Shown here: one piece after another, positions 221 through 13,587 of the stretch | Layout of the letters: every line of letters starts with the position of its first letter | Numbering within the stretch: the first letter of the stretch is position 1 | Origin: Hyphomonas sp. | GTDB lineage: Bacteria; Pseudomonadota; Alphaproteobacteria; Caulobacterales; Hyphomonadaceae | Assembly: GCA_024743015.1 (NCBI GenBank) | Contig: JANSXJ010000011.1 | Location: 1-21,970, forward strand | Direction: 5' to 3' | DNA length: 21,970 nt | Program-made: the position numbers and the translations under genes | Notes under the pieces: model-generated | What the model saw: the letters and a program-made list of their open reading frames with translations, nothing else | Database searches by the model: none | Told to the model about the DNA's origin: nothing

Positions 221-730
221 TTACGCCAGCAGTTGCGTGGCGTAGATGTCGGAAGCGGTTAGAGGCAACAGCCGATCCGCCATTTCGCGTTTCAACATTT
301 CCAATCGCTGGTTCTGTTCGGCGGATCGGTGAGATGTGGCGCCGAGGCGAACGAACTCCTCTCGTACATGACCGGGACGGATCTTGGCTTCGACCGTTTG
401 GCCGCGGTAGGTGAAGCGCCAAAGATAAGGACCAGGCGGATCGGTGATCACGTCATGACCACCAAGGCTGCGATCGACGGTCAGCCGTTCGTCCGTCAGC
501 GCGCGAGTCACCGCTTCGATCGCGTCGCGGCCGCCGGGACCGGTGAACGCGGTGATGATGGTGACCTTTCGCCGTTCAACCGGTTCTGGCCCGAACAAGG
601 CAAACGCCGCCTGCATTGCCTTCAGCCCATGGACAACGCCACCCGGGAAGCCGCCACCATGGTAGCGCATGATGTATTCAAAATCGAAGGTGAGCGGCTG
701 CCCGGCCTCGAGAACCGTGATGCTATCCAT
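221..730 (-). CDS. FmdE-like protein lacking the family cysteines
   Basis: This 169-residue cytoplasmic protein is the last gene of the six-gene ABC operon; its ATG overlaps the previous stop by 8 bp. Residues 23-35 (H-G-G-G-F-P-G-G-V-V-H-G region) followed by a helix, and residues 63-75 (T-G-P-G-G-R-D-A-I-E-A-V-T), resemble the two conserved segments of the FmdE family, which normally read H-G-H-x-C-P-G and N-D-x-C-x-x-D-A-I. FmdE proteins are named after the molybdenum formylmethanofuran dehydrogenase operon and often carry metal-binding cysteines. Here the whole protein has no cysteine, so any metal site must use other residues; His24, His35, His92, His121 and His134 are available. Family assignment rests on pattern recognition of two short segments and is moderate. 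The role is unknown. Context suggests handling of the ligand or metal imported by the neighbouring transporter. Confidence 0.6.
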   Translation of the reverse strand: MDSITVLEAGQPLTFDFEYIMRYHGGGFPGGVVHGLKAMQAAFALFGPEPVERRKVTIITAFTGPGGRDAIEAVTRALTDERLTVDRSLGGHDVITDPPGPYLWRFTYRGQTVEAKIRPGHVREEFVRLGATSHRSAEQNQRLEMLKREMADRLLPLTASDIYATQLLA

Positions 731-1328
731 CGAGATATGCCCTCAGATTGGGAAGGAACCGGTCCAGGAACCGTGTCGTCGCCGGCATGAAGTGCGAGCC
801 GTGATGGTAGATCGGGTCGAGCGAGGTGACGATCATGCGCCCAGGGGTCGAGACTTCATCGATGTAGAAAAGCGTGCGTCCTTCTGCGTCCTCGGCCAGC
901 ACATCGGCGCCCTCCGGCGTGTCGAAATGGCCGTGCAGATGCCAAGTGATGTCATCCTTGCCAATACCCGCCATCAGCGGATGACCGGGAGCCGTTACAC
1001 GGTTGCCGAGATCAGCACCCGGTTCAAGCCACCACCACCAGTTTGTTGGGCGGCCATGAAATGTGACACCGGGCAGCCAAAGATCGGATCGGCTTTCTCC
1101 CATTGCCACCACGGTGCCACCCGCCGCCAGATATTGCCCAATCTGGTCAGCCTGTGCGATCAGCCGTTGCGCTGGGCTGCGGCACGGAACGAAGATGCAC
1201 GCGTTTTCTGCCCTCACCTCGTCCAGCCGCTCGGGTGTCAGCACCTGATCGAAGTAAGCCGCATAGCGCGGCGCCTCCAGGCTTTCGATATGGTAGTACG
1301 TGCCGGAAGACAGGGCGATCAGACGCAC
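723..1328 (-). CDS. GATase/ThuA-like protein of unknown function (second of a pair)
   Basis: About 201 residues, no signal peptide. I chose the GTG at 1328 because GGAGG at 1338-1342 lies 9 nt upstream; GTG at 1334 and TTG at 1352 are alternatives in the same frame. It overlaps the end of the upstream gene by about 10 bp and the next gene by 8 bp, so translation is probably coupled. An alternating strand/helix N-terminal half with a glycine turn (A-A-G-G-T-V-V-A-M-G-E-S) and an H-P-L-M-A-G-I segment near the middle recall ThuA-like and other class I glutamine-amidotransferase-fold proteins. Histidine-rich stretches (W-H-L-H-G-H-F and D-P-I-Y-H-H-G-S-H-F) are eye-catching possible metal or ligand sites. 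A four-tryptophan run lies in the middle. No clear Cys-His-Glu amidotransferase triad is visible. It looks like a diverged paralogue of the gene before it. Function unknown. Confidence 0.62.
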   Translation of the reverse strand: MRLIALSSGTYYHIESLEAPRYAAYFDQVLTPERLDEVRAENACIFVPCRSPAQRLIAQADQIGQYLAAGGTVVAMGESRSDLWLPGVTFHGRPTNWWWWLEPGADLGNRVTAPGHPLMAGIGKDDITWHLHGHFDTPEGADVLAEDAEGRTLFYIDEVSTPGRMIVTSLDPIYHHGSHFMPATTRFLDRFLPNLRAYLDG

Positions 1329-1939
1329 AGGCACGGCCCTCCGTTGGTCCAATCAAAGATGCGGGCATAGAGAATAGGTGGCAGGTCCCACTCCCTGCCT
1401 GCCTGGCCGAGATCGTTCCCGGCATGGCTGAAGAAACGGCCGCCACCGGGGCGGTGCCAAACCCAGTCGACGGGCACGGTCCCGTTCCGCAGCCCTGTGA
1501 CGGCAATCGCGCCAGCCGGCATGGGATTTGCCCCGCGCCCATAGAACCCGGCAACGCCATGATTTGTCTCCAACTGCGCGATCTCGATGCCCTTAAAAAT
1601 CGGGTGCGCCGCGAGGCGGGTCTGCTCGAAATCGGGCCGTTTTGGGTTTCGCATCGACTGGTAAGGCTCTAGTTCGGCGATCAATGGGCGCACGACATGG
1701 CCGTTGAAGAACCAGCGCCCCCCTGCGTCGAGGAAGCCCTCCAGCGCTTGGCGAAGCTGCAGGAGCGCCTCTTGGTCGAGCTGGTTGCCGGTCACGAGGC
1801 CATGGGCCTTAGCCAGCCGGGCGGCATCCAACTCGGCTTGCGGAATGATCGCAATCCGGCCGGCCGCGGCGGTCTTTCGCACCGGTGCGGGCGGGTCGCC
1901 GAATGCACAATGCAGATAGAGCATCGTGATCGTGCTCAC
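1319..1939 (-). CDS. GATase/ThuA-like protein of unknown function (first of a pair)
   Basis: This 206-residue soluble protein starts at an ATG that overlaps the ATPase stop by 4 bp (ATGA). It has a G-G-R-W-F-F-N-G-H turn near residue 75, an H-P-I-F-K-G-I motif, and a late segment W-V-W-H-R-P-G-G-G-R-F-F-S-H-A-G-N-D. The H-P-I-x-x-G-I and G-R-x-F-x-x-x-G-N-D patterns are reminiscent of ThuA-like / glutamine-amidotransferase-like proteins. The following gene shares the H-P-(I/L)-x-x-G-I segment and similar length, which suggests an old tandem duplication. The only cysteines lie at the extreme C-terminus, so classical Cys-nucleophile amidotransferase chemistry is unlikely. It sits between the transporter ATPase and its paralogue, which suggests a job tied to the imported compound. 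Function not recognised. Confidence 0.62.
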   Translation of the reverse strand: MSTITMLYLHCAFGDPPAPVRKTAAAGRIAIIPQAELDAARLAKAHGLVTGNQLDQEALLQLRQALEGFLDAGGRWFFNGHVVRPLIAELEPYQSMRNPKRPDFEQTRLAAHPIFKGIEIAQLETNHGVAGFYGRGANPMPAGAIAVTGLRNGTVPVDWVWHRPGGGRFFSHAGNDLGQAGREWDLPPILYARIFDWTNGGPCLCV

Positions 1940-2682
1940 GCCGCGTAGACGGGCACGACGGTGCCGTGCCGTGTCCCGGCATGCTCATAATCAAGCCGCC
2001 GCACCGGCATGTCGTAGAGCCGCGACAGGTTGGCTTCGGACAAAACCTCCTGGCTGGGCCCGTACAAATAATCATTCCCGCCGTAGAGCAGCAGCACCTT
2101 GTCGGCCACGTGCAGGGCGTGCTGCGGAAAGTGCGTCGTAAAAAGCACCGTAAGTCCGTCATCTGCGCCCAGCTGGCGCATGACGGACAGGATCTGCGAC
2201 TGGTTGCGGAAGTCGAGCGCCGAGGTAGGCTCGTCCAGAACCAGTCCCTCGCACTCGGATGCAAGCGCGCGTGCGACGAGCACAAGTTGTCGTTCTCCGC
2301 CGCTGAGCGAATCAAAGGGTCTGTCGGCGAATTCAGCGATCTTGAGTTTCTCAAGTGCAGCGCGACAGATCACGGCATCCTTGGCCTTGGGGGCGCCAAG
2401 CGTGTGTACGTGGCGGGCGCGCCCCATCATCACCATGTCGAACACCTTGAAAGGGAATGCGGCCTGCGAGATCTGCGGGACATAACCCAGCGGACCGTCG
2501 ACGCGTGCTCGTCCTTCGCGCGGGCGCAAGAATCCCATGATCGCCTTCAAAAGCGTGGTCTTTCCACGTCCGTTCGGACCGAGGATGGCCACGGCCTCGC
2601 CGCGGCTTGCGGAGAAATCGATCGCGCGCAGCAGCCACGGACCATGGCCATAGCCGTGCCCCAGTCCGCGCACGTCAATCAC
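1936..2682 (-). CDS. ABC transporter ATP-binding protein, FecE/BtuD-type
   Basis: This 248-residue nucleotide-binding subunit of a type II (metal-chelate) importer acts on the inner face of the cytoplasmic membrane. Motifs in order: Walker A G-P-N-G-R-G-K-T-T at about residues 34-42, Q-loop in Y-V-P-Q-I-S, signature L-S-G-G-E-R-Q, Walker B L-V-L-D-E-P-T-S-A-L-D, and switch histidine in F-T-T-H-F-P. The Walker A loop has Arg where Ser or Cys is usual. The start overlaps the permease end by 8 bp and the stop overlaps the next gene by 4 bp. Permease and binding protein partners are immediately upstream in the operon. Family: iron-siderophore, haem, cobalamin or molybdate/tungstate importers. The substrate cannot be read from this subunit. 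Confidence 0.93.
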   Translation of the reverse strand: MIDVRGLGHGYGHGPWLLRAIDFSASRGEAVAILGPNGRGKTTLLKAIMGFLRPREGRARVDGPLGYVPQISQAAFPFKVFDMVMMGRARHVHTLGAPKAKDAVICRAALEKLKIAEFADRPFDSLSGGERQLVLVARALASECEGLVLDEPTSALDFRNQSQILSVMRQLGADDGLTVLFTTHFPQHALHVADKVLLLYGGNDYLYGPSQEVLSEANLSRLYDMPVRRLDYEHAGTRHGTVVPVYAA

Positions 2683-3724
2683 GGCTCCATCCTCTCGCTT
2701 GGGTGGATTTCAGCAAATAGCCGAAAACTGGCGCACCGATCAGCGCGGTCAGCACACCCAACGGTATCTCGGCGGTTGTTGCGGTGCGCGCGATCGTATC
2801 GATGATCACGAGATAACCACCCCCGACAACCATCGCCACCGGCAGCAGAATGCGATGATCGGGGCCGACAATCATCCGCGCCAGATGCGGCACGACCAGC
2901 CCAACCCATCCAACGACTCCGGCAACCGCCACCACAGCCGCCGCGATCGCCGCGACGCAGAACACGATGACGAGGCGCATCGTATTGACGGAAACACCAA
3001 GCGACTCGGCTTCCTCGTCACCCAGCGACAGAACGTTGATCCGCCAGCGCAGCAGAAACAGCAAACCGCAGGTCGCAACGACCGGTGGAAGCAGCCAGGC
3101 CAGTTCATCATAGCCCGCAGTCGAAAAGCTGCCCATCAGCCAGAACACGATGGCCGGCAGCTTGTCTTCGGGATCGGCAACATATTGGATCAGCGAGGTG
3201 AGCGCCGCAAACATCGCGCTCGTCACCACGCCGGCCAGCACCAGCATGAGGACGGGCGAGCGGCCTCCGACACGGCTCAGCCACAGCACGATCGCCATTG
3301 CAATCAGTCCAAACGCGAAGGCCAGGAGCATCAGTATAAATTGGCTTTCCGATACCAGCAGCGCTAGCGCTCCACCAAAGCCGGCGCCAGACGAAACGCC
3401 GATGATCTGCGGTCCCACCAGAGGATTGCGGAACGTCCCCTGAAGCGCGACACCGGCAGCAGCGAGCGCCGCGCCGCATGTCATCGCCACGAGCACGCGC
3501 GGTAAGCGCAGTGCTTCAACCACCTGCTCCTCGACAAGATCCCAACTAGTATCGAGCGGCATGACATTGCCGAACAGGATGGCCAGAACGCGATGCCAGG
3601 GTATCGGATAGCGTCCCATCCCAAGAGCAAGTACGACCGTTATCAGCAAGGCTGCCGACAAGCCGATCCAAAGAATGGTCTGGCGGCGCGCCCCTGTCGT
3701 TCCGGTGAGTGAAACCTGTGTCAT
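2675..3724 (-). CDS. ABC transporter permease, FecCD/BtuC family
   Basis: This 349-residue polytopic inner-membrane protein has about ten hydrophobic segments, the normal size for the family. Diagnostic segments are L-R-L-P-R-V-L-V-A, A-G-V-A-L-Q-G-T-F-R-N-P-L-V-G-P, the coupling region G-D-E-E-A-E-S-L-G-V, and G-W-V-G-L-V-V-P-H-L-A-R near the C-terminus. It would form the homodimeric translocation pore for the binding protein encoded just upstream, powered by the ATPase just downstream. The ATG overlaps the binding-protein stop by 4 bp. BtuC/FecCD-type permeases take iron chelates, haem, cobalamin, and in the MolABC subgroup molybdate or tungstate. I cannot choose between them from sequence alone. 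Confidence 0.93.
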   Translation of the reverse strand: MTQVSLTGTTGARRQTILWIGLSAALLITVVLALGMGRYPIPWHRVLAILFGNVMPLDTSWDLVEEQVVEALRLPRVLVAMTCGAALAAAGVALQGTFRNPLVGPQIIGVSSGAGFGGALALLVSESQFILMLLAFAFGLIAMAIVLWLSRVGGRSPVLMLVLAGVVTSAMFAALTSLIQYVADPEDKLPAIVFWLMGSFSTAGYDELAWLLPPVVATCGLLFLLRWRINVLSLGDEEAESLGVSVNTMRLVIVFCVAAIAAAVVAVAGVVGWVGLVVPHLARMIVGPDHRILLPVAMVVGGGYLVIIDTIARTATTAEIPLGVLTALIGAPVFGYLLKSTQARGWSRD

Positions 3725-4809
3725 CCCTGCTGGCGCAAGAATCTGTCATAGCCCGGATTTTCGCCATTCACGTCTATTCGCAAAATTGCATCGATCTCGC
3801 TGTCGCTCAGTTCGTAGCCGTAAACGTCTGCGTAAAAGCGCTGCATTTCCCAGCGCAGGTCGTAGTCCATTCGATCGCCATAAAGCAGTTCGGCTAGCCA
3901 CATCCAGGACAGCGGAGACTCCTGCGAAGGCGGGTCCCATCGGTAGCCGCCCAGCGGCATCTTGTAGACCCTGCGGTTCTGGACGGCGTTCAAAGCGGAG
4001 TAGAGCGGATTGTTGTAGAAATCCTCGGGCATAGCCGGATCGAAGTTGCCCAGCAGGATGACATCCGGGTTCCAGGCCAAAAGCTGTTCGGGATTGATCT
4101 CGGTGCGGCTGCCTGAAGGCCCTGCCGGGTTCACGCCGCCGACCATATCCATGTAGAAGTGATTGTAGCTGCCTTCGCCGCGTACTTCGAGAGAGTTGGC
4201 CGCCCGCAGGAAATAGAGCACCGAAACACGTTCGTCGTCCGGCACCTCGGCAGCTTGGGCACCAATGCGCTGGATTGCGTCTTCGTGTTTGCCGAGAATC
4301 AGGTCAGCACGGTCGGGTTGGTCGATCGCAGCGGCCAAGGTACGGATCCAGGTTTCCGTATCTTCCTGGGTGCCGTAGGTGAGCCCGATAACGGGAAGGC
4401 CGACTGCCTCCATGGGCTCCAGCAATTCGTCGCCGCGGCCGGCCCATTGCACGACAAGATCCGGCTTGAGGTTCAGTACGGCCTCGACATTGGGCGCGAA
4501 GACACCGCCCGACGTGATTCCGGTCTCAACGTCCAGAGCCTCCGGGAAGATCACCCCGAGGATGCCCTCCTCGATCGCCGCCTGCGATGCTGGATGCATT
4601 GCCACGAGAGGCTCTGCGCTTCCGGCGACCGACGCAAATAACGCCGCAGCCGGCATCGGGAACGTGACGAGGCGCTCGACGGGCCCATCCAGTTCGACGG
4701 TGACGTCACGCTGGTCGGTCAGCGTGATCTTGTCCTCAGCAAATGCGCTTGATGTGACGGCCACCGTCAAGCCTGTGATCACAACGCCCTGCAGAATCGG
4801 CTTTGTCAT
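3721..4809 (-). CDS. Periplasmic binding protein, BtuF/FecB/MolA-type (TroA-like fold)
   Basis: 362 residues, beginning with a Sec signal peptide (basic start, hydrophobic core, cleavage after A-F-A at about residue 24); no lipobox, so probably soluble in the periplasm. The mature part has the two-lobe class III layout: N-lobe with E-A-V-L-N-L-K-P-D-L-V-V-Q, a long linking helix, and C-lobe with N-P-D-V-I-L-L-G and V-Q-N-R-R-V-Y-K-M-P-L-G-G-Y-R-W-D. Such proteins bind metal chelates, haem, cobalamin or oxyanions. It is the first gene of the operon. AGGAGAT lies 4-5 nt before the ATG. Expression is likely set by the promoter and leader upstream. No TonB receptor gene is present, so the outer-membrane step is encoded elsewhere or uses porins. 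Confidence 0.9.
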   Translation of the reverse strand: MTKPILQGVVITGLTVAVTSSAFAEDKITLTDQRDVTVELDGPVERLVTFPMPAAALFASVAGSAEPLVAMHPASQAAIEEGILGVIFPEALDVETGITSGGVFAPNVEAVLNLKPDLVVQWAGRGDELLEPMEAVGLPVIGLTYGTQEDTETWIRTLAAAIDQPDRADLILGKHEDAIQRIGAQAAEVPDDERVSVLYFLRAANSLEVRGEGSYNHFYMDMVGGVNPAGPSGSRTEINPEQLLAWNPDVILLGNFDPAMPEDFYNNPLYSALNAVQNRRVYKMPLGGYRWDPPSQESPLSWMWLAELLYGDRMDYDLRWEMQRFYADVYGYELSDSEIDAILRIDVNGENPGYDRFLRQQG

Positions 4810-5264: not shown

Positions 5265-6173
5265 TCAGCCATCGGCGTCAAGCCCGTAGAATCTCACCGC
5301 ATTGGTCGCAAAGAATGCCTCGGCGATGTCCGGATCGCAACGCTGGACGAGCTGGCTGGCGCGGTCGATGCAGTTTGCATACGAAACGCCGATACGATCG
5401 ACCGGAAAGTTGCTACCAAACATCAGGCGATCGGGTCCGAAGACCTCGACCAGCCGATCGAACACCGGGTTTGCGCTCTGGGCGGTCCAATTGCGGCAAA
5501 ACATCGTCATGCCGGAAAACTTCATGCTCACCGAAGGCTGGTCGGCGAAGACCGACAGTGCTTCTGACCATGCGTTCAGATAGTCCGGCTCGAGCGATCG
5601 GGGCATTCCGCAATGGTTGATGGCTATCTGCAGGCCCGTGTCGTCGGCAAGCTGCGCCAGATCGGAAAATTGCTGATGCCAAACCTGGGCTTCGAACCGC
5701 AAACCCAAACGCGCCAGATGCGCAAACGATCGGCGCGCCGCCCTGGACCGGAGCAGGTCCTGATCGGCAAAGTTCCATGTCGGATCGCCGCTGTCCCAGT
5801 TCAGAATCTGCCGAACACCGACGACGCGACGCGTTTGCGCAATTGCGTCTGCCTGCGCGCGCGCATCGTCGGCCAGCAAATCGAGAAAGGGCACAATGGC
5901 CGTTGGCAATCCATGCCGGTCCGCCACCGCATTGAGCCAGTTGGTCTCAGCCTGTGCTAGATCGGGCCGCACCACGGCCTCCACATGCACCGAGCCCACC
6001 AGGTCAACGACGGACGTATCGGCAAGAAAATCCTGTGCGGTGTAGTCGGTCTGAATGGCGGCGATGTCACCCAGCCCCGGCAGCGGATGAACCAATGGTT
6101 CAGACAGCCAGGGATAGTGGAGCTCATCCAGCTTCCAGAGGTGATGGTGCGCATCGATGACTTTTCGCTTCAT
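5265..6173 (-). CDS. Amidohydrolase-2 family sugar lactonase (L-fuconolactonase/L-rhamnonolactonase-like)
   Basis: About 302 residues of the COG3618 TIM-barrel hydrolase family, cytoplasmic. It likely opens the sugar-acid lactone made by the neighbouring dehydrogenase. The N-terminus K-V-I-D-A-H-H-H-L-W carries the metal/active-site histidines; later markers are I-N-H-C-G at mid-protein and the strand-end motif G-S-N-F-P-V-D, both typical of this family. I place the start at the ATG at 6173, whose ATGA overlaps the stop of the aldo-keto reductase, rather than 28 codons upstream, where the extra residues would lie inside the previous gene and precede the conserved start. It is the last gene of the sugar operon. 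L-fuconate, L-rhamnonate and L-galactonate lactones are all possible substrates. Confidence 0.87.
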   Translation of the reverse strand: MKRKVIDAHHHLWKLDELHYPWLSEPLVHPLPGLGDIAAIQTDYTAQDFLADTSVVDLVGSVHVEAVVRPDLAQAETNWLNAVADRHGLPTAIVPFLDLLADDARAQADAIAQTRRVVGVRQILNWDSGDPTWNFADQDLLRSRAARRSFAHLARLGLRFEAQVWHQQFSDLAQLADDTGLQIAINHCGMPRSLEPDYLNAWSEALSVFADQPSVSMKFSGMTMFCRNWTAQSANPVFDRLVEVFGPDRLMFGSNFPVDRIGVSYANCIDRASQLVQRCDPDIAEAFFATNAVRFYGLDADG

Positions 6174-7204
6174 TGCGGCGCAGCCCCGCAATCGAGCGCC
6201 GCCGGGATCAGACCCTCGGCTTGAAGGTCCGACCAAAATTGCGGCGGAATGGGGCAAAGCATCGCCGCTGCGTTCGCTGCGACCTCATTCACCGAGCGCA
6301 TACCGGCAAGAACGCTGGCAACCGCCGGATGAAGCAGTGGAAACTGCAGCGCGGCGGCCGGCAGGGGCACCGAGTGGGTCGCGCAAATTGCCTCGATCCG
6401 GCGGACGCGCACGATCGTTTCGCCGTCGGCATCTCCGTAGTTGGCGTTGAGCGTGTCGCCGGACGTTCCGGTCGCGAGAATGCCCGACTGAAACGGAGCG
6501 CCGACAATGATACCGGTCTGCGTCCGGGCCGCATCGTTCATCAGTTCGGGAAACGCCGACTGGTCGAGTAAGGTGAACCGCAACGCCAGTAAAATGAAGT
6601 CGATCTCGGGCCGCTCGATGAACCGATTGCACAAGGTCAACTCGTTGGCGCCGGCCCCCACTGCGCGCACCGTTCCTTCGGCGCGCAGTTTCTCAAGCGC
6701 CCGAAGACCACCGCCGGCCAGGTCCTTGTAGTGGCCTTCGAGGACGTCCGTTGTTTCCATGTGCCACAGGCCCAGATCGTGGATCACCAGGCAGTCGACG
6801 CGGTCGCGGCCCAGGCGCTGAAGGCTGTCCTCGACCTGCCGCATAACACCGTCATGGGTGAAATCGAACGCGGCTCCGAACGGCGGCGCCTCGCGAAAGA
6901 TGCCATGATCGACCGGCCGGCCCTTGGCGGGAAACAGTGTTCGGCCCACTTTGGTCGAGATCATCACCTCTTCTTCTGCCCCCAGGGCCACGCCAAGTCG
7001 ACGCTCGCTCAGCCCGAAACCGTAAAAGGGCGCGGTGTCGAAATAATCGATCCCCGAATTGCGCGCGGCAGTCACCGTCTCCAGTGCCTGCGAGGCCGAA
7101 ATCGACGTGTAGAGATTGCCCAGCGGCACGCAACCGAACCCCAGCGGCCCTAAGCGCAGATCTGACGATCCGAGCTTGCGCCCAGGGCGCTCCAAAAGGC
7201 TCAT
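6170..7204 (-). CDS. Aldo-keto reductase, aldose 1-dehydrogenase type (L-fucose/L-galactose dehydrogenase-like)
   Basis: 344 residues with an AKR barrel. The catalytic tetrad is visible: Asp56 and Tyr61 in D-Y-F-D-T-A-P-F-Y-G, Lys85 in S-T-K-V-G, His142 in L-V-I-H-D. The G-x-G-C-x-x-L-G-N-L-Y start and the long internal insert after Lys85 fit the subgroup that includes L-fucose, D-threo-aldose and L-galactose dehydrogenases and pyridoxal dehydrogenase. It would oxidise the imported sugar at C1 with NAD(P)+ to the lactone that the next gene product opens. The ATG overlaps the mutarotase stop by 4 bp and its stop overlaps the lactonase start by 4 bp, so all three are probably co-translated. The exact sugar is inferred from context only. 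Confidence 0.88.
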   Translation of the reverse strand: MSLLERPGRKLGSSDLRLGPLGFGCVPLGNLYTSISASQALETVTAARNSGIDYFDTAPFYGFGLSERRLGVALGAEEEVMISTKVGRTLFPAKGRPVDHGIFREAPPFGAAFDFTHDGVMRQVEDSLQRLGRDRVDCLVIHDLGLWHMETTDVLEGHYKDLAGGGLRALEKLRAEGTVRAVGAGANELTLCNRFIERPEIDFILLALRFTLLDQSAFPELMNDAARTQTGIIVGAPFQSGILATGTSGDTLNANYGDADGETIVRVRRIEAICATHSVPLPAAALQFPLLHPAVASVLAGMRSVNEVAANAAAMLCPIPPQFWSDLQAEGLIPAALDCGAAPQ

Positions 7205-7518
7205 CCCTCAAATTCCCATATGAGTGGCAGCATGTAGGGATAGCCCGTCGTCGGGTCGATCTCGGCCTTCATCAGATGAGCGTTGAACTCACCCCATCTG
7301 GCGAAGACCTCGCTGTTCTTCATCACCTCATAGACCTTGTCGATATCGTCGCAGACAAAAGTGCCGAACAAGGTCAGGCCGTGGCGGAAGATGGCATAAT
7401 CGCGCTGCCCGGCCCGCCGCATCTCTTCCAGCAGTTCCGGCCATATCTCGTCATGCCGCTTTTCGTATTCTTCCTCGTAACCTGGGCGCACTTCCAGGAC
7501 CCACGCATACCGTTTCAT
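7201..7518 (-). CDS. L-rhamnose/L-fucose mutarotase-like protein
   Basis: A 105-residue protein of the RhaM/COG3254 (DUF718) ferredoxin-like fold, which interconverts sugar anomers. R-Y-A-W-V-L-E-V-R-P-G, then E-K-R-H-D-E-I-W-P-E-L with the catalytic-type histidine, then F-A-R-W at residues 72-75, follow the family order. The start at 7518 is chosen over an in-frame ATG at 7524 because GGGAGG (7525-7530) lies 6 nt before it. The C-terminal segment (G-Y-P-Y-M-L-P-L-I-W-E) differs from classical RhaM. It lies 17 bp after the permease stop and overlaps the dehydrogenase start. Its presence points to a sugar that enters metabolism as one specific anomer, such as L-fucose or L-rhamnose. Confidence 0.88.
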   Translation of the reverse strand: MKRYAWVLEVRPGYEEEYEKRHDEIWPELLEEMRRAGQRDYAIFRHGLTLFGTFVCDDIDKVYEVMKNSEVFARWGEFNAHLMKAEIDPTTGYPYMLPLIWEFEG

Positions 7519-7535
7519 TCCCATCCTCCCAGTTT

Positions 7536-8528
7536 CTAGGTTCTCCTGCGCTTTTCCCGAATCTGGTCGATCCCGACGGCCAGCAACAGCACCACGCCAT
7601 GCGTCACCTTCTGCCAGAAGCTCGATACGCCCAGGATCACCAGCGCGTTGTTCAACGTGCCCAGGATCATCACCGCGATCAGGGTTCCAAGAATAAAGCC
7701 GCGACCGCCAAGCAGGCTGGTCCCGCCGAGGATAACCGCGGCGATCACGGTCAGCAGGCTGGCCGAAGCCGCGGTCGGGGCGGTCGCGCCAAGCCGAGCC
7801 GCCAGGAGTAGGCCGGCCAGCGCACCGCAGAAGCCCGAGAAGGTGTACAGCGCGATGCGCAGTCGCTCGACCGGAACGCCCGCGATCTCGGCCGCTTCCG
7901 GGTTGCCGCCGCACGCGAAGATGTAGCGGCCCGAGCGCGTCTGCGTCATCACATAACCCACGATCACAAAGACGGCGATCATGAACAGCGCGATAATGGG
8001 AAAGCCCATGACGCGGCCGCTGCCCAGCATGTTGAAGACCGGGTCGATCAGCGGCCGGGTCAGCCCTCCCGTGAGGACCAGTGCCCCGCCTTCGACGATG
8101 CTGAGCATGCCGAGCGTCGCGATAAAGGGGTTGACCCCGATCTTCTCAATGATCAGCCCGTTGACGAACCCGATCGCCGAGCCAACGACAAGCGCCAGAC
8201 CGGCCGCGACCCAGATGTCGAGACCATGAGCGACGAGCATTCCAAGCACCACGCCCGATAGCCCGGCGATGGCCGGTGAAGACAAGTCCAGCCCGCCGGC
8301 GATGATGAGCGGGGTCAGCGCGGCAGCCATGATGCCGATGAAGGCCATGTTCGCCACGATGTTGCTGATGTTGTTGAAGGTCAGGAAGTACGGCGAAAGC
8401 ACGGAGAACGCGACCACGAGAACGATGTAGAAGGCAAAAAGGATGCCCACCGTCTCTGTGCCGCCGGAGATCAGGCCGCGAAGACCGCGCCAATTCTGGG
8501 TCGACTCGACTGCGTTGTTATCCGACAT
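7536..8528 (-). CDS. ABC sugar transporter permease, RbsC family
   Basis: 330 residues with about eight to ten hydrophobic segments, forming the membrane pore of a sugar importer. Family landmarks are L-I-I-A-G-G-L-D-L-S near residue 80, N-P-F-I-A-T-L-G-M, the cytoplasmic coupling loop A-C-G-G-N-P-E-A-A-E-I-A-G-V, and L-G-G-T-S-L-L-G-G-R-G in the C-terminal third. It overlaps the ATPase gene by 11 bp; AAAGGGGA lies just before the ATG. It works with the upstream ATPase and binding protein. There is only one permease gene, so the pore is presumably a homodimer, as in ribose-type transporters. Confidence 0.93.
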   Translation of the reverse strand: MSDNNAVESTQNWRGLRGLISGGTETVGILFAFYIVLVVAFSVLSPYFLTFNNISNIVANMAFIGIMAAALTPLIIAGGLDLSSPAIAGLSGVVLGMLVAHGLDIWVAAGLALVVGSAIGFVNGLIIEKIGVNPFIATLGMLSIVEGGALVLTGGLTRPLIDPVFNMLGSGRVMGFPIIALFMIAVFVIVGYVMTQTRSGRYIFACGGNPEAAEIAGVPVERLRIALYTFSGFCGALAGLLLAARLGATAPTAASASLLTVIAAVILGGTSLLGGRGFILGTLIAVMILGTLNNALVILGVSSFWQKVTHGVVLLLAVGIDQIREKRRRT

Positions 8529-10059
8529 GTCTTCCCCTTTCGGAACTGGCGGCTGCCGCCATCAGATCTTCGGGCGATGCGCCGGAGGTGAACTCGCCAA
8601 CGATCCGCCGGTCACGCACGACGTTCACCCGGGCGCTGCAGCCGGCAATCTCGTCAACGTCTGACGAAATCAACAGCACTGCGACGCCTTGATCTGTCAA
8701 CACTCTGATTTTCTTGTATATTTCCTCGCGCGCGCCCATATCGACGCCGCGTGTCGGCTCTTCCAGCACGAGCAGCTTGAGCCGATCGTCGATCCAGCGC
8801 GACAGACAGGCCTTCTGCTGATTGCCACCTGACAGTTCGCCGATCGGCTGGAAAACAGACTGACAGCGCACCGACAGAAGCTGAGACTTTTCGGCCGACG
8901 TGTGGTGCATGCGTCTCTTGTTCAGCTTACCGGCCCGGCTGAACAGCTCCAGTCTGGGCAAAGCGATGTTCTCTGAAATGCTCATCTGCGGAACGATCGC
9001 ATCACGCTTGCGCTCGGCCGGCAGATAGCCGATGCCGGCCGATATCCGCCCGGCGGCGGAGTTGGGCATCGGCGCTCCCTCGAAGATCGCACGACCGCCC
9101 GCGATCCGGGACTCCTTGGCAAAAAGGGCGTGGCCGAAGTTTTCGACTCCCGAGCCAAGCATGCCGAACATGCCTACGGTCTCGCCGGCCCGGACCACCA
9201 GGTCGATGTCTTGCATGCCCTTTTGGAGGCTTACGCCGTCCAGACGCAAAGTCTCCGGCGCATCCTGCGCAGCTCTGGCAACCGGCGGAAAAAGTTCGTC
9301 GAACTGACGCCCCAGCATCGCAACCAGAATGTCGGCTTCCGTCGTAGTCTTGGGCTCGAACGTTCCGGAAATGCGCCCATCCTTCAGGACATGGATCCTG
9401 TCCGAGATCGCCAGCACTTCGTCGAGATAGTGCGATATGAAGATGATGGAGGTTCCGGCATCGCGCAGACGACGAAGGTTGCCGAACAGCTCTTCTTTTT
9501 CAGCGTCCGACATCGATGCGGTCGGTTCGTCCATGATCAGAAGGCGGGCGTTTCCGGCCAATGCGCGCGCGATCTCCACCAGTCTCATCTGCTGCAAGCT
9601 GAGATCACGCACCTGAATGTCGGGCCTCACATCGAGCCCGACGCGCTCAAGCAGGCTTTCTGTGCGGCGACGCATCTCCCCTCGGTCAAGTCGCGCCGCA
9701 AAACCCGATCCGTTCACAGGCAGATCGCCCAGAAGCACATTCTCAGCCACACTGAGTTCGGCGACAATGCTGATTTCCTGAGGCAGAAGCCGCACGCCGC
9801 TCGCCATGGCTTCCATAGGCGAGGTGAAATTGATGGGGTCGCCGTCGAGCACCATCGTGCCCGCGTCTGCGCTGTAGACACCACACAGTATCTTGATGAG
9901 CGTAGATTTGCCGGCGCCATTGGCGCCGAGCAAAGCGGTTATCTCGCCTGAACCGAACTCGGCCTCTATGCCCTTGAGCACCGTGTTTGTGCCGAAGGAC
10001 TTCTCAAGCCCTGATATGACAAGGCGCGCGGAGGCTGGGTTCGGGGCGGGTTCGGTCAT
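8518..10059 (-). CDS. Sugar ABC transporter ATPase with two nucleotide-binding domains, RbsA/MglA type
   Basis: 513 residues, two fused ABC domains. The first has Walker A G-A-N-G-A-G-K-S at about 45-52, a shortened signature L-S-L-Q-Q-M in place of L-S-x-G-Q-Q-Q, and Walker B L-L-I-M-D-E-P-T-A-S. The second has the degenerate Walker A G-M-L-G-S-G-V-E usual in this family, signature L-S-G-G-N-Q-Q-K and Walker B L-V-L-E-E-P-T-R-G-V-D. The start is set at the ATG at 10059, which overlaps the binding-protein stop as ATGA. A longer upstream frame exists but would lie inside that gene and has no ABC homology. It powers uptake by the adjacent permease. Confidence 0.93.
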   Translation of the reverse strand: MTEPAPNPASARLVISGLEKSFGTNTVLKGIEAEFGSGEITALLGANGAGKSTLIKILCGVYSADAGTMVLDGDPINFTSPMEAMASGVRLLPQEISIVAELSVAENVLLGDLPVNGSGFAARLDRGEMRRRTESLLERVGLDVRPDIQVRDLSLQQMRLVEIARALAGNARLLIMDEPTASMSDAEKEELFGNLRRLRDAGTSIIFISHYLDEVLAISDRIHVLKDGRISGTFEPKTTTEADILVAMLGRQFDELFPPVARAAQDAPETLRLDGVSLQKGMQDIDLVVRAGETVGMFGMLGSGVENFGHALFAKESRIAGGRAIFEGAPMPNSAAGRISAGIGYLPAERKRDAIVPQMSISENIALPRLELFSRAGKLNKRRMHHTSAEKSQLLSVRCQSVFQPIGELSGGNQQKACLSRWIDDRLKLLVLEEPTRGVDMGAREEIYKKIRVLTDQGVAVLLISSDVDEIAGCSARVNVVRDRRIVGEFTSGASPEDLMAAAASSERGRHVG

Positions 10060-11231
10060 TGGGGAAGAACGTCGAGGCTTTCCGCGTAACGAGGATCGGC
10101 CTTGATTTCTTCGAGCAGAGCGTCGAACGCCTCTTCGGGATAGTCGTACTGGAAGCTGACAAAGGGGTCCGCTTCCGCGCAAGCCGTTTCGCCGTAGTAC
10201 TCGCAAACGTTGGTCTTGTTGACGACGACATGGTTGATCAGGAGCGCCTCGGGCAGGTCCTGGCCGGCAAGCTGCGCGAGCGACAACGGCACCACCCAGT
10301 TGCCGTAGCGTTCGGGAAAGAAAGCGACTGAACCGACCATGTTGGGCGTTGCCATCATCGTTTCGATCTCATCCGACCCCATACCGACGCCGATCGCCAT
10401 ATCCCCGCGTCCGGCAGCGGATATGGCGCGCAACATACCGATCACGGATTGGTCATTGTTGGCCGTGACCATGATGGGCGCGTCAGCGGGGATGCGCGCC
10501 AGAACGCTGTTCATCTGGCTGAATGCCTGTTCGATCGACGCCGTGGTGTCGAGAGTTACGACCCGGTCCTTCGGCAGGTCGAGCACCGCTTCGACACCGG
10601 CGCGCTGGCCGTGCGAACGCATGCCCAGAACCGCGCCCGACTGAGTCAGTTCACCAACAACGAACACGCCATTTTCACGTACGATTTCCTCTCCAAATCG
10701 CTCCATGGCGGCGGATGCCAGATAGGTCCCGGCTATGAAGCCCGATTGGGGATTGTTGACGCCAAAGAACATTGCGCCCGGCATTGGAATATCGATGGCA
10801 ACGACCGGTGCCTCGATCTCGTTGAAGGCGTCCATGATGGCGGGTCCGAAATTGACATCGAGCTGAAATTCAATGACAGCGTCGACCTCACGCTGGGCAA
10901 AACCCTGGGCAACGGAAAGCGCCGTTGGACCGTCCAGCTGGTTGTCGGCGACGATCACCTCAATGCCGGCACGCTCGCCGTTTTCGAGAATGCTGCGTTC
11001 GACAAGCTGGGTGAACACAATGTCCCGCGACAGATTGGCAAAGCCGATCGTCAGGGTTACGCCGTCATTGGGCGGGCTGTTTTCTCTGGCCGCAGCCACG
11101 AGCGCCTCATACTCCGCCTCCGACAGCATGGTGCCGTCGAGCCTATCGAGATCAAGAGGCTCGGCCATGGCGAGCGTTGAAAAGGCGAGTACTGCCAAAG
11201 CAGATGAACCAAGCAATAATTCGAGTTTCAT
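10056..11231 (-). CDS. Periplasmic sugar-binding protein, RbsB-like (Peripla_BP_4)
   Basis: 391 residues. The signal peptide is M-K-L followed by a hydrophobic core and cleavage after A-M-A at about residue 23. The mature part has the type I periplasmic fold: a first strand T-I-G-F-A-N-L-S with I-V-A-D-N-Q-L-D, the middle A-P-V-V-A-I-D-I-P-M-P-G ligand segment, and A-P-I-M-V-T-A-N-N-D-Q-S-V in the second lobe. A C-terminal extension carries two nearby cysteines (N-V-C-E-Y-Y-G-E-T-A-C) that could form a disulfide in the periplasm. Strong GGGAGG sits 5 nt before the ATG. It follows the dehydratase gene by 18 bp and overlaps the ATPase start. It would bind the sugar degraded by the enzymes of the same operon. 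Confidence 0.92.
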   Translation of the reverse strand: MKLELLLGSSALAVLAFSTLAMAEPLDLDRLDGTMLSEAEYEALVAAARENSPPNDGVTLTIGFANLSRDIVFTQLVERSILENGERAGIEVIVADNQLDGPTALSVAQGFAQREVDAVIEFQLDVNFGPAIMDAFNEIEAPVVAIDIPMPGAMFFGVNNPQSGFIAGTYLASAAMERFGEEIVRENGVFVVGELTQSGAVLGMRSHGQRAGVEAVLDLPKDRVVTLDTTASIEQAFSQMNSVLARIPADAPIMVTANNDQSVIGMLRAISAAGRGDMAIGVGMGSDEIETMMATPNMVGSVAFFPERYGNWVVPLSLAQLAGQDLPEALLINHVVVNKTNVCEYYGETACAEADPFVSFQYDYPEEAFDALLEEIKADPRYAESLDVLPQ

Positions 11232-11249
11232 GTTTTCCTCCCTGCGAGT

Positions 11250-12431
11250 TTAAGTGAAATCCATGTATTCGGTCTGGTCTTTCCGTATCCGGTCCCAGTC
11301 ATATTCGACGCCCAGCCCCGGCCCCTCGGGAACGGCAACGCACCCTTCGGCGTCGATTGCCTCGAGTTGATCGGAGTAGTCGCACGCGTAGATGGGCGGG
11401 AGCGCATTGGGCATCCCGGGCCCGACCAGCGCGATCTCGTAGTAGCTCGTGTTCCTGATGGCCGACATGCAGTGCCGATGTGCCGGCCCGCATGCGTGAA
11501 GCTCGACATCCAGACCCAGCCCTTCGGCAATGTGGGCGATCTTCATGCAGCCGGTGATACCCAGATCGTATTCGGGATCGGCGCGCAGAATGTCCGTTCC
11601 GCCCGCAATGGCGAAGTCGGCCTTGGGTTCGATCCCCCGGACGTGCTCGGTAATCAGGAGCGGCGTTTTGATCTTCTCGCGCAGACGCTTGTGCGCAAAG
11701 GCCGACACGCCGGAATCGCGGAATGGGTCCTCATACCAAATGAACCCGGCCTCATCGCAGGCGTAACCAAGCCGAAGCGCATCGGCAAAAGTCCTGATCT
11801 GACATGCCGGGTCGATCGCCAGATCCATGTCGCCCCCGACGGCCTTCCTGACTGCCAGCACATTGTCGATCTCGCGCGACACCAGGCCGTCATGCCAACC
11901 GTGAATCTTGAACGCGCGATAGCCCATCTGGCGACACTCCAGCGCGAAGTCGCAAAAGGCTTCGGTCGAGTTCAAGCCATGGCCCGAGGTCTGGGCGTGA
12001 TAAGTGCTGGCATAGGCACGCAGTTTGCTCCGGTAGCCGCCCAGAAGCGTCGACACGCTCTGACCAACGGCTTTGCCGGCAAGGTCCCACAGGGCGATAT
12101 CAAAAATGCCATGGGCCATATGATCGTATTGGCGGAACTCGCGCTTGAGATCGTCGAAGATGGCTTCGCGATGGAAAGGATTACGGCCGATGAGGAACGG
12201 CGCCATCATCCGCGCCTGACCCAGGACGGCCGGTGTGCCGCCCCATTGGGCGACATACTCGCCCTTCAGCCCGCCATCGGTTTCGATCCGAACGGCGAAT
12301 TTGGACACTTGCAAGGTGCCCGAAGGGTCGGCGGAGATGTTTGTAACCGCCGCCGATGCGGCAGATTCGATGGCCAGCCCCGGTATCGAGCTGCTGAAGA
12401 CGACAATCTCTACCCGGCGAATACAGTCCAT
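11250..12431 (-). CDS. Enolase-superfamily sugar-acid dehydratase (mandelate racemase-like)
   Basis: 393 residues; first gene of the sugar operon. Metal ligands are Asp207 (A-I-D-P), Glu234 (Y-E-D-P) and Glu262 (T-E-H). The general-base side has His312 (L-H-A-C-G-P) with Asp285 upstream and Glu332 after it, as in the mandelate racemase subgroup. The second-strand motif is K175-I-H177, i.e. K-x-H, not the K-x-K of mandelate racemase itself. It would dehydrate the aldonate to a 2-keto-3-deoxy acid. The start at 12431 is supported by AAGGAAGG about 4-5 nt upstream; a frame extending to 12692 would run through the operators and the regulator. Expression is expected to be repressed through the LacI sites 30 bp upstream. 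L-fuconate or L-rhamnonate is likely but unproven. Confidence 0.87.
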   Translation of the reverse strand: MDCIRRVEIVVFSSSIPGLAIESAASAAVTNISADPSGTLQVSKFAVRIETDGGLKGEYVAQWGGTPAVLGQARMMAPFLIGRNPFHREAIFDDLKREFRQYDHMAHGIFDIALWDLAGKAVGQSVSTLLGGYRSKLRAYASTYHAQTSGHGLNSTEAFCDFALECRQMGYRAFKIHGWHDGLVSREIDNVLAVRKAVGGDMDLAIDPACQIRTFADALRLGYACDEAGFIWYEDPFRDSGVSAFAHKRLREKIKTPLLITEHVRGIEPKADFAIAGGTDILRADPEYDLGITGCMKIAHIAEGLGLDVELHACGPAHRHCMSAIRNTSYYEIALVGPGMPNALPPIYACDYSDQLEAIDAEGCVAVPEGPGLGVEYDWDRIRKDQTEYMDFT

Positions 12432-12462
12432 TTGGCCTTCCTTTGGCGAACAATTGCCAGCT

Positions 12463-12497
12463 ATGGCAACGTTGCCATTCAATTGGTAACGTTGCCA
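12463..12497. promoter_or_regulatory. Two tandem LacI-family operators, centres 20 bp apart
   Basis: The first site is a perfect 16-bp palindrome, ATGGCAAC/GTTGCCAT (12463-12478). The second, TGGTAAC/GTTGCCA (12484-12497), has one mismatch. Both have the central CG and T-G-G...C-C-A edges usual for LacI-family operators. Centre spacing is exactly 20 bp, about two DNA turns, so both would face the same side. They lie between the divergent dehydratase and regulator genes and probably control both. Confidence 0.82.
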
Positions 12498-12573
12498 TTG
12501 GCGCCCGTCAATGAAAATGTTAAAAATGAGTGCGCCGTGATGCGACGCATGAAAACGACAAAGGAGCAATTGA

Positions 12574-13587
12574 GTGGCGTCGAGGAGCGGGCTGAAAAGC
12601 GTGGCGCGCCGCGCTGGCGTCTCTACCACAACTGCCGGTCGTGTCCTTCGCGGCGAGCGGAATGTCAGCGAGAAAACTGCGACGGCCGTCAAAGAGGCCG
12701 CTGCGGAGTTGGGTTATGTTGTCAATTCCATGGCAAGCGGCCTGAAGAACAGCAAGTCACGCCTGGTTGCGATCGTTGTGCCCACTTTCCACGGGTCCGT
12801 GTTCAGCGAAGCGATCGAAGCGGCGGCTGCCGCGCTGCGAGAACACGGATTTCAGATGATCATCGGCGAAAGCTCGTACGAGGTAGACCAGGAGGAAGAG
12901 GCGGTCGCCGCTCTGCTTGCGCGCCGCCCCGATGGAATCGTCATTGTCGGCACTAGGCATACGCCGCGCACGCGCAAGATGCTGGAGAGCGCCGGCATTC
13001 CGGTGGTTGAGACATGGGATATCGCCGATCATCCGCTTGGAGCGAACATAGGGTTCTCCAACTTTGATGCCGCCGAAGCGATGGGGCTGGCCCTGATCAA
13101 GAAGGGTTATAGCAGGTTCGGCGTCATCAGCGGGCCAGCCGTCGACGGCAACAGAGCTCTGCAGCGCCTGAGTGGATTTCGATCGGCTCTGAGAAAGCAC
13201 GGGCTGCAGGAAAAGTGGTGCGAGATCGTCCCCTACCACCACGTTCTGGGGAATTTGGCTGAAGGCGGCCGCCACATCGTTGGCTTGCTGCAAAAACGGG
13301 CGCGGATCGATTGCCTGTTTTGCACCAATGAGCTCAGCGGCATTGGCACGATCGTCGCGCTGCGACGCGCCGGGACCAAGGTTCCCGAAAACATCGGCGT
13401 TGCCGGTTTCGGGGACGTCGAAATAGCCTCGCTGATCGAACCCGCTTTGACGACGGTGCGCATAAGAGGACGCGAAATGGGCCTGAGGTCTTCCCAGTTG
13501 CTATTGAAGCACATTGAAGAAGACGAGGATATCAGTGGAATTGTTGAAGACGTCGGGTTCGAGATCGCTGAACGCGACAGCGCCTGA
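12574..13587 (+). CDS. LacI-family transcriptional regulator of the sugar operon
   Basis: 337 residues starting at a GTG at 12574 with AAGGAG (12561-12566) 7 nt upstream. The helix-turn-helix and hinge helix occupy residues 6-57 (S-V-A-R-R-A-G-V-S-T-T-T-A-G-R-V-L-R-G, then E-L-G-Y-V-V-N-S-M-A-S-G-L). The C-terminal domain is of periplasmic-binding-protein type (L-V-A-I-V-V-P-T-F, P-V-V-E-T-W-D, I-G-V-A-G-F-G-D-V-E), similar to the GntR-type branch. It is divergent from the operon it probably represses. The likely inducer is the sugar or an early intermediate. A single regulator with paired operators in the shared intergenic region also implies autoregulation. Confidence 0.92.
   Translation: MASRSGLKSVARRAGVSTTTAGRVLRGERNVSEKTATAVKEAAAELGYVVNSMASGLKNSKSRLVAIVVPTFHGSVFSEAIEAAAAALREHGFQMIIGESSYEVDQEEEAVAALLARRPDGIVIVGTRHTPRTRKMLESAGIPVVETWDIADHPLGANIGFSNFDAAEAMGLALIKKGYSRFGVISGPAVDGNRALQRLSGFRSALRKHGLQEKWCEIVPYHHVLGNLAEGGRHIVGLLQKRARIDCLFCTNELSGIGTIVALRRAGTKVPENIGVAGFGDVEIASLIEPALTTVRIRGREMGLRSSQLLLKHIEEDEDISGIVEDVGFEIAERDSA

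Follow-up and report, generated by a model that had tools for sequence, protein, structure and literature searches.

A six-gene operon of a MolBC-like importer and three soluble proteins, and relatives of the soluble set beside unrelated ABC importers

Introduction

Systems that pair an importer with dedicated downstream enzymes are already known. Here we describe an operon that joins an ATP-binding cassette (ABC) importer of the FecCD type (genes A, B and C) to three genes for soluble proteins, two with a predicted ThuA-like, or class I glutamine amidotransferase (GATase), fold (D and E) and one with an FmdE fold (F). The six genes were found by open reading frame (ORF) calling, packed on the minus strand within positions 221..4809 of a 21,970-nucleotide stretch of Hyphomonas sp. 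DNA (assembly GCA_024743015.1, contig JANSXJ010000011.1, positions 1 to 21,970), which we call the window. D-E and F have relatives beside unrelated importers, and a paralogous A-B-C-F set runs into the phn genes for carbon-phosphorus (C-P) lyase in other genomes. Tentatively, we favor the view that the operon brings in a small ligand able to pass through porins and handles it in the cytosol; this ligand would most likely be an organic anion, with phosphonate as the lead candidate.

Among solved structures, the permease and ATPase closest to B and C are those of MolABC (HI1470-HI1472) from Haemophilus influenzae. Its binding protein, MolA, is also related to A, although A is much closer to another solved chain, 4ovk. 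According to one report (PMC4031551), MolBC-A is a low-affinity molybdate importer, MolA also binds tungstate, and the cluster holds two more genes, HI1469 and HI1473; these carry the labels modA and modD in a second paper (PMC3928620). In the described phn operon the importer genes phnCDE run into the C-P lyase genes, as the paralogous A-B-C-F genes do; in the paralogous set, however, A-B-C-F replaces PhnCDE and a LysR gene adjoins. ThuA-like and class I GATase proteins (1t0b, 3rht) have their fold in common with D and E, but D and E lack an invariant Cys, occur as paired or fused domains and have conserved His motifs of their own. The FmdE family (PF02663; 2glz, 2gvi, 3d00) differs from F in that F scores below its cut-off and lacks two ligands of the FHGHxC motif; F is moreover all core fold, with no room for the extra zinc-finger domain of FmdE. 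FmdE genes beside metal transporters are already in print: most family members are reported to adjoin metal-ion transporters, and only 13 of 208 to adjoin the dehydrogenase (PMC2954224).

Results

The soluble proteins accompany several importer families

A genome scan yielded 231 relatives of E, and the best 80 by likeness to the window's E were kept as loci. Because of this choice FecCD-type loci are over-represented; many of the 80 are close kin, and several contexts stop at contig ends. Gene chains were tabulated for 90 sequences (the 80 loci, 9 further ones and the window), and the importers were grouped by us. In 83 of the 90, a sample that favors window-like loci, D-E (or E) lay in a same-strand chain with importer genes: FecCD-type in 69, Opp-type in 12 and SsuABC-type in 2, while 7 had no importer by that criterion. 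Thus, the soluble proteins do travel with an importer, as the original prediction had supposed, and are not found mostly apart from it.

Altogether, D-E and/or F were seen with four unrelated types of ABC importer: FecCD/MolBC-like, Opp/Nik-like, SsuABC-like and one archaeal fused permease. By a wider count, an Opp-type importer accompanied D-E in 14 of the 80 loci, including those of Thalassospira, Stappia and Azospirillum. Both Opp-type binding proteins scanned (L069 and L077) were confirmed as PF00496. The nearest NCBIfam model was NikA for one of four such binding proteins and Opp4A for the other three, and Opp2B for both permeases scanned, all below cut-off. At loci such as L072-L079, genes for an Opp-type permease and binding protein precede D-E, and no ATPase was matched in the stretches searched. 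Two Opp-type loci that are distant from each other (L069 8107-11706; L117 7185-8396) encode a HupE/UreJ-domain membrane protein immediately ahead of D-E, and in L069 a DUF364/DUF4213 protein follows E. Homologues of DUF364 are reported to have a link to how iron, tungstate, vanadium and molybdate are transported and chelated (PMC2954201).

The order SsuCBA-D-E occurs in two genomes, where the binding proteins match PF09084 and reach 162.7 and 169.8 bits against the SsuA model (cut-off 163.5); Chelatococcus also carries SsuCBA-D-E. In Azospirillum thermophilum, SsuCBA is succeeded by an F gene but not by D-E, and on plasmid pECOED of E. coli ED1a (L110 9001-12436) an SsuABC-type importer lies between two F-like proteins that have diverged (32% and 28%). 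Of 71 further relatives listed, the regions of 13 were inspected, one of which (H21) carries no annotation. Relatives also occur in the Bacillota, where Paenibacillus has F-D-E-oppA-oppB, and in the archaea, where the haloarchaeon Natribaculum luteum has genes for a binding protein, a D-sized protein, E (31% over 80%), a permease of two fused domains and an ATPase.

Since the set persists through changes of gene order and of importer family, D-E-F would appear to act on a common ligand and not on one transporter; from the sequences, action on the imported compound is the more likely of the two. Because relatives of D-E or F sit with unrelated importers, the supposition of the original prediction that the family of the transporter tells the substrate is not supported.

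The set is a conserved unit

The six genes recur as a unit across Rhizobiales and Rhodobacterales. In the window they overlap by 4 bp (A/B), 8 bp (B/C), 4 bp (C/D), 10 bp (D/E; 16 bp if E starts at 1334) and 8 bp (E/F), so the 4-10 bp originally noted holds provided that E starts at 1328. The overlaps are kept in 55 of 56 cases for B/C, 41 of 42 for C/D, 57 of 60 for E/F and 20 of 54 for A/B. D ends no more than 400 bp before E in all 80 loci, and the two are fused in frame in 35. The order is permuted among loci (D-E-F-A-B-C, A-B-C-E-D, D-E-A-B-C-F). E is rare: in samples of other genomes it was matched in 6 of 384 for the class and in 4 of 397 for the phylum, with one of the latter four matches at just 3.4e-4. 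Outside A-F and antisense frames, no ORF cluster was present in more than 10 of 81 sequences, most clusters being unannotated; antisense ORF clusters 6-8, all on the minus strand, were taken as frame artefacts.

A diverged D'-E' paralogue (27-36%), sometimes fused, lies beside its own or another FecCD set at four loci (Table 1). Some copies are broken or reflect assembly errors, with pieces in different frames: D in L049 (3013-3617) and B in L012 (7602-8517) and L064 (7629-8608; R. johnstonii 3841). In L061 (Rhizobium anhuiense CCBAU 23252), each of the six genes gave a single unbroken match.

Table 1. Genes of the operon in the window and positions of the D'-E' paralogue elsewhere
Feature	Sequence	Position	Strand	Length and basis
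A, periplasmic substrate-binding protein, PF01497	window	3721..4809	-	362 amino acids; ORF call, Pfam
B, FecCD-type permease, MolB-like	window	2675..3724	-	349 amino acids; PF01032 8.1e-91
C, ABC ATPase, MolC-like	window	1936..2682	-	248 amino acids; PF00005 1.8e-24
D, class-I-amidotransferase-fold protein	window	1319..1939	-	206 amino acids; without Pfam family; without invariant Cys in family
E, ThuA-like-fold protein	window	723..1334	-	203 amino acids from GTG 1334, 201 from GTG 1328
F, FmdE-fold protein	window	221..730	-	169 amino acids; without second His and Cys of FHGHxC metal motif
D'-E' paralogue	L016	11166-13529
D'-E' paralogue	L028	4990-6351
D'-E' paralogue	L115	3882-8054
D'-E' paralogue	L107	6920-10900

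The importer resembles MolBC

Pfam named A, B and C confidently. Against solved structures, B matched HI1471 (MolB) at 7.1e-88 and then HmuU at 1.6e-48, and C matched HI1470 (MolC) at 1.1e-56, with the runner-up at 1.4e-33. The assembly's other FecCD permease, taken as a control, placed MolB last of its eight matches. To be nearest to MolB nevertheless means less than it sounds, because B has just eight distinct solved relatives among the matches listed, four of them BtuC; the remaining eight rows are repeat proteins. A bears an N-terminal signal-like stretch, read by eye. MolA is not its nearest solved relative: 4ovk (3.8e-59), labeled just 'periplasmic binding protein', and 4pag (6.1e-20) both rank ahead of MolA (3psa, 6e-14). 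A belongs to PF01497 and is not a PhnD-type binding protein (PF12974).

D, E and F have familiar predicted folds and altered motifs

In Pfam, D and E had no match at all, including to ThuA (PF06283), and F matched FmdE (PF02663) only below the cut-off (16.1 bits against 22.9). NCBIfam gave D, E and F weak matches only, far under cut-off. Among relatives, 4 of 26 E proteins matched PF06283 at E<=0.1 (best 4.7e-4) and 6 of 23 F proteins matched PF02663 at the same threshold. Both D and E are nevertheless predicted to adopt the class I GATase fold. No invariant Cys that could serve as catalytic nucleophile was found in the alignment of D (24 rows) or the wide alignment of E (20 rows); Cys49 is invariant only in a narrower E alignment (26 rows).

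F has, by prediction, the alpha+beta core of FmdE. The FHGHxC motif, taken from PMC2954224, was placed by eye on an alignment of F and nine relatives, a check that covers the ligands up to but not including the later Cys. The first His and the Gly are invariant, while the positions of the second His and the Cys are replaced in all 10 rows. Matches of the F profile to TAL effectors in the PDB were rejected, as no stretch passes alone and a 48-residue part of repeat proteins was aligned; matches of single homologues to unrelated Pfam families were rejected as weak.

A paralogous importer runs into C-P lyase genes

In seven genomes, phnG, H, I, J, K and L come after a paralogous A-B-C-F set in the same orientation. 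Of the contigs concerned, L050 and L094 belong to one genome, L052 and L095, being equal in length, are apparently two ends of one 30.5-kb contig, and phnL is cut in L043. In Martelella and similar genomes, D-E lie between a divergent LysR gene and A-B-C-F-phn; in the Rhizobium group, the genes upstream of A-B-C-F-phn are A-B-C-D-E-F or the end of that set. A-B-C-F also runs into phn genes on three plasmids, into phnGHIJKL on those of Agrobacterium vitis and Proteus mirabilis and into phnG-H-I on that of Labrenzia. F-phnG spacings, as annotated, are 34 bp in Labrenzia and 12 bp in P. mirabilis, with a 26 bp overlap in A. vitis. The A. vitis plasmid pRvVAR031b carries both sets; on Labrenzia pTHAF187b_d phnG-H-I follow A-B-C-F and the stretch ends at phnI; on P. 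mirabilis pPM33-2 a 126-amino-acid porin-family gene, probably a fragment, comes after the last phn gene. F relatives at 70% are also listed on plasmids of Morganella and Klebsiella.

No phnCDE genes are named in the phn-linked stretches, and no PhnD-family match was found on the seven phn-linked contigs. Neither are phnM, N and P named in the annotated phn-linked stretches, for which the PLSDB tables are incomplete. In the draft genome G465, the linked PhnI is the sole PhnI match, and the best PhnD-family match reaches 2.9e-8 (33.9 bits, above the Pfam cut-off); in the 13 remaining genomes of the 14 searched, that match is at least as strong as 2.7e-45. PhnI (PF05861) was present in 19 of 20 genomes with D-E, which we do not count as support because seven of these genomes were picked for the phn link and there is no baseline.

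The C-P lyase genes of Martelella, Labrenzia, Agrobacterium and Proteus (L049 ~7948-12231, L108, L109, L111) form a divergent, partly plasmid-borne lineage with phnGHIJKL, a LysR gene alongside, and no phnCDE or phnM named. Its PhnI proteins match at 1e-103 to 1e-112, whereas copies of the usual kind match at 1e-162 to 1e-167. In L093, ~5 kb separates one more A-B-C-D-E-F set from another phn cluster, a divergent one.

Receptors and regulatory sequences

No TonB receptor was matched in 3 of the 20 D-E genomes, whose completeness is not stated; one of the three, Pelagibacterium limicola, has the full A-F set. Such TonB-free genomes disfavor cobalamin, haem and large siderophores as ligands, and fit molybdate, phosphonate and small organic acids equally. 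The porin-family gene of Proteus likewise fits a small ligand. In L004 (707-6387), a TonB receptor-like ORF under a cobalamin riboswitch diverges from A-F, with matches to a FecCD-type permease and ATPase behind it. With this receptor as the one query, a similar receptor was near the set in 4 of 80 loci (L004, L016, L054 and L065). In the 14 loci scanned with Rfam there were two cobalamin riboswitches, that of L004 on the other strand and that of L005 ~6 kb downstream of F, and none upstream of A on the strand of A. A k-mer and palindrome search of the upstream regions returned promoter-like and lineage-bound strings only. Urease occurs in 17 of the 20 D-E genomes, which says little.

Surroundings of the operon in the window

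The next upstream gene on the strand of A encodes an amidohydrolase (PF04909) and ends ~450 bp before A. It opens a region upstream of A (window 5265-13587) in which the further ORFs were identified by reading only, as aldo/keto-reductase-like, mutarotase-like and enolase-superfamily-like, together with a sugar-type ABC importer and a LacI-like regulator. The region looks like one for deoxysugar catabolism. Only two other window ORFs, by reading those of the sugar-type importer, cluster with ORFs from elsewhere, one with ORFs of 3 loci and one with ORFs of 2. No RNA was found in the window by Rfam at gathering score, and PADLOC found nothing. A search of the window's own genome gave no DUF364 protein.

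E was absent from all 28 genomes of the same genus and from 32 other relatives searched, and among the loci kept the closest set is that of an uncultured member of the Rhodobacteraceae (L003; E 80%). For the window's contig, the choice is between horizontal acquisition and a binning error.

Discussion

We infer a scheme that comprises a substrate, possible catalysis, a cytosolic location and an order of steps. A would bind the ligand in the periplasm, and a MolBC-like B2C2 importer would move it inward. D-E, co-translated and often fused into a single protein, would act on it in the cytosol, as would F. D-E is probably an enzyme or a ligand-binding pair with conserved His/Asp in place of the amidotransferase Cys, and F may be a partner that binds the ligand or hands it on. 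In the phn-linked A-B-C-F lineage, the importer would bring in a phosphonate, which would then go to C-P lyase; by extrapolation, the window's own ligand may be a phosphonate as well. Phosphonate explains the phn operons and suits both the porin gene and the TonB-free genomes.

Several observations weigh against this reading. The window contains no phn genes; the operon with phnGHIJKL was seen for the paralogous A-B-C-F in relatives and not for the window's set, and phn genes are close by in only 8 of 80 loci. The F proteins linked to phn genes fall into a clade of their own (99/81 support), and the window's ligand may therefore differ from theirs. D-E are absent from the phn operon of P. mirabilis pPM33-2, and six of the seven phn-linked genomes have another PhnI and a strong PhnD-family match elsewhere. 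Of 65 regions upstream of A, 13 had Pho-box matches of at least 10/14, where resampled sequence would give ~8.6, an unconvincing excess. Lastly, phosphonate leaves unexplained the MolBC likeness as such, the HupE/UreJ proteins of L069 and L117 and the DUF364 protein of L069, all of which point to a metal.

That A-B-C is a MolABC-type importer of molybdate or tungstate (or of nickel), with D-E-F for cytosolic handling or storage of the metal, is accordingly a serious, if somewhat less likely, alternative. B and C score far better against HI1471 and HI1470 than against their other solved relatives, and the control permease does not; MolBC-A imports molybdate, FmdE genes mostly adjoin metal-ion transporters, and TonB-free genomes would suit an oxyanion too. 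For nickel, both Opp-type permeases are best against Opp2B, a nickel model, and one binding protein of four against NikA; however, the nickel models all stay below cut-off, and Opp4A, also below it, scores higher for the other three binding proteins. No metal logic is obvious in the SsuABC-type importers with D-E or in the A-B-C-F phn operons, and F misses two FHGHxC ligands. The original prediction had associated FmdE-family proteins with molybdenum or tungsten enzymes. FmdE does not by itself point to these metals, because these ligands are replaced in F and its nine relatives and few FmdE members are reported to adjoin the dehydrogenase; as B and C have MolB and MolC for their closest solved relatives, the ligand may still be molybdenum or tungsten.

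It is rather unlikely that the operon takes up a sulfonate or another small organic acid as a source of carbon, nitrogen or sulfur, with no phosphonate in the window's branch. The SsuA-type binding proteins beside D-E, which score around the model's cut-off, would agree with such a role, but the set shows no shared catabolic partner, an argument that is weak because most ORF clusters are unannotated. A role for D-E and F as regulators or inhibitors that gate uptake through the importer ATPase would account for the strict overlap with the ATPase gene (C/D), yet contact with one ATPase would hardly survive, because the relatives accompany ATPases of several importer families and some loci (such as L072-L079) have no ATPase match in the stretches searched; we regard it as improbable. 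Uptake of a large chelate (cobalamin, haem or a siderophore), as the FecCD name, the families PF01032 and PF01497 and the riboswitch-controlled receptor beside the L004 set might suggest, is very improbable given the genomes without a TonB receptor match, the rarity of receptors similar to that of L004 near the set and the lack of a cobalamin riboswitch upstream of A in the 14 loci scanned.

A broader form of the phosphonate reading, which we put forward as possible rather than probable, is that D-E-F form a transporter-independent cassette that receives and processes one class of small compounds, probably phosphonate-like, behind at least four unrelated ABC importers in bacteria and an archaeon, and that it feeds, among other routes, a second, plasmid-borne C-P lyase lineage in which a MolBC-like importer replaces PhnCDE. 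In the open-access literature we found no description of the six-gene set, as the original prediction had anticipated, and nothing on D-E, on their association with more than one family of importer, or on C-P lyase operons that contain A-B-C-F. New here are the occurrence of D-E or F with four unrelated importer types in permuted orders and the A-B-C-F genes in phn operons.

The substrate of an importer is usually assigned by its family; in this system that fails, as one unannotated protein pair follows several families. Knowledge of the ligand would annotate several hundred proteins, mostly called hypothetical, and would give a first function to a clade of the FmdE fold and to a ThuA-like pair in which no Cys is invariant. 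If the phosphonate reading is true, the operon type would represent a second entry to C-P lyase that surveys based on PhnCDE would overlook.

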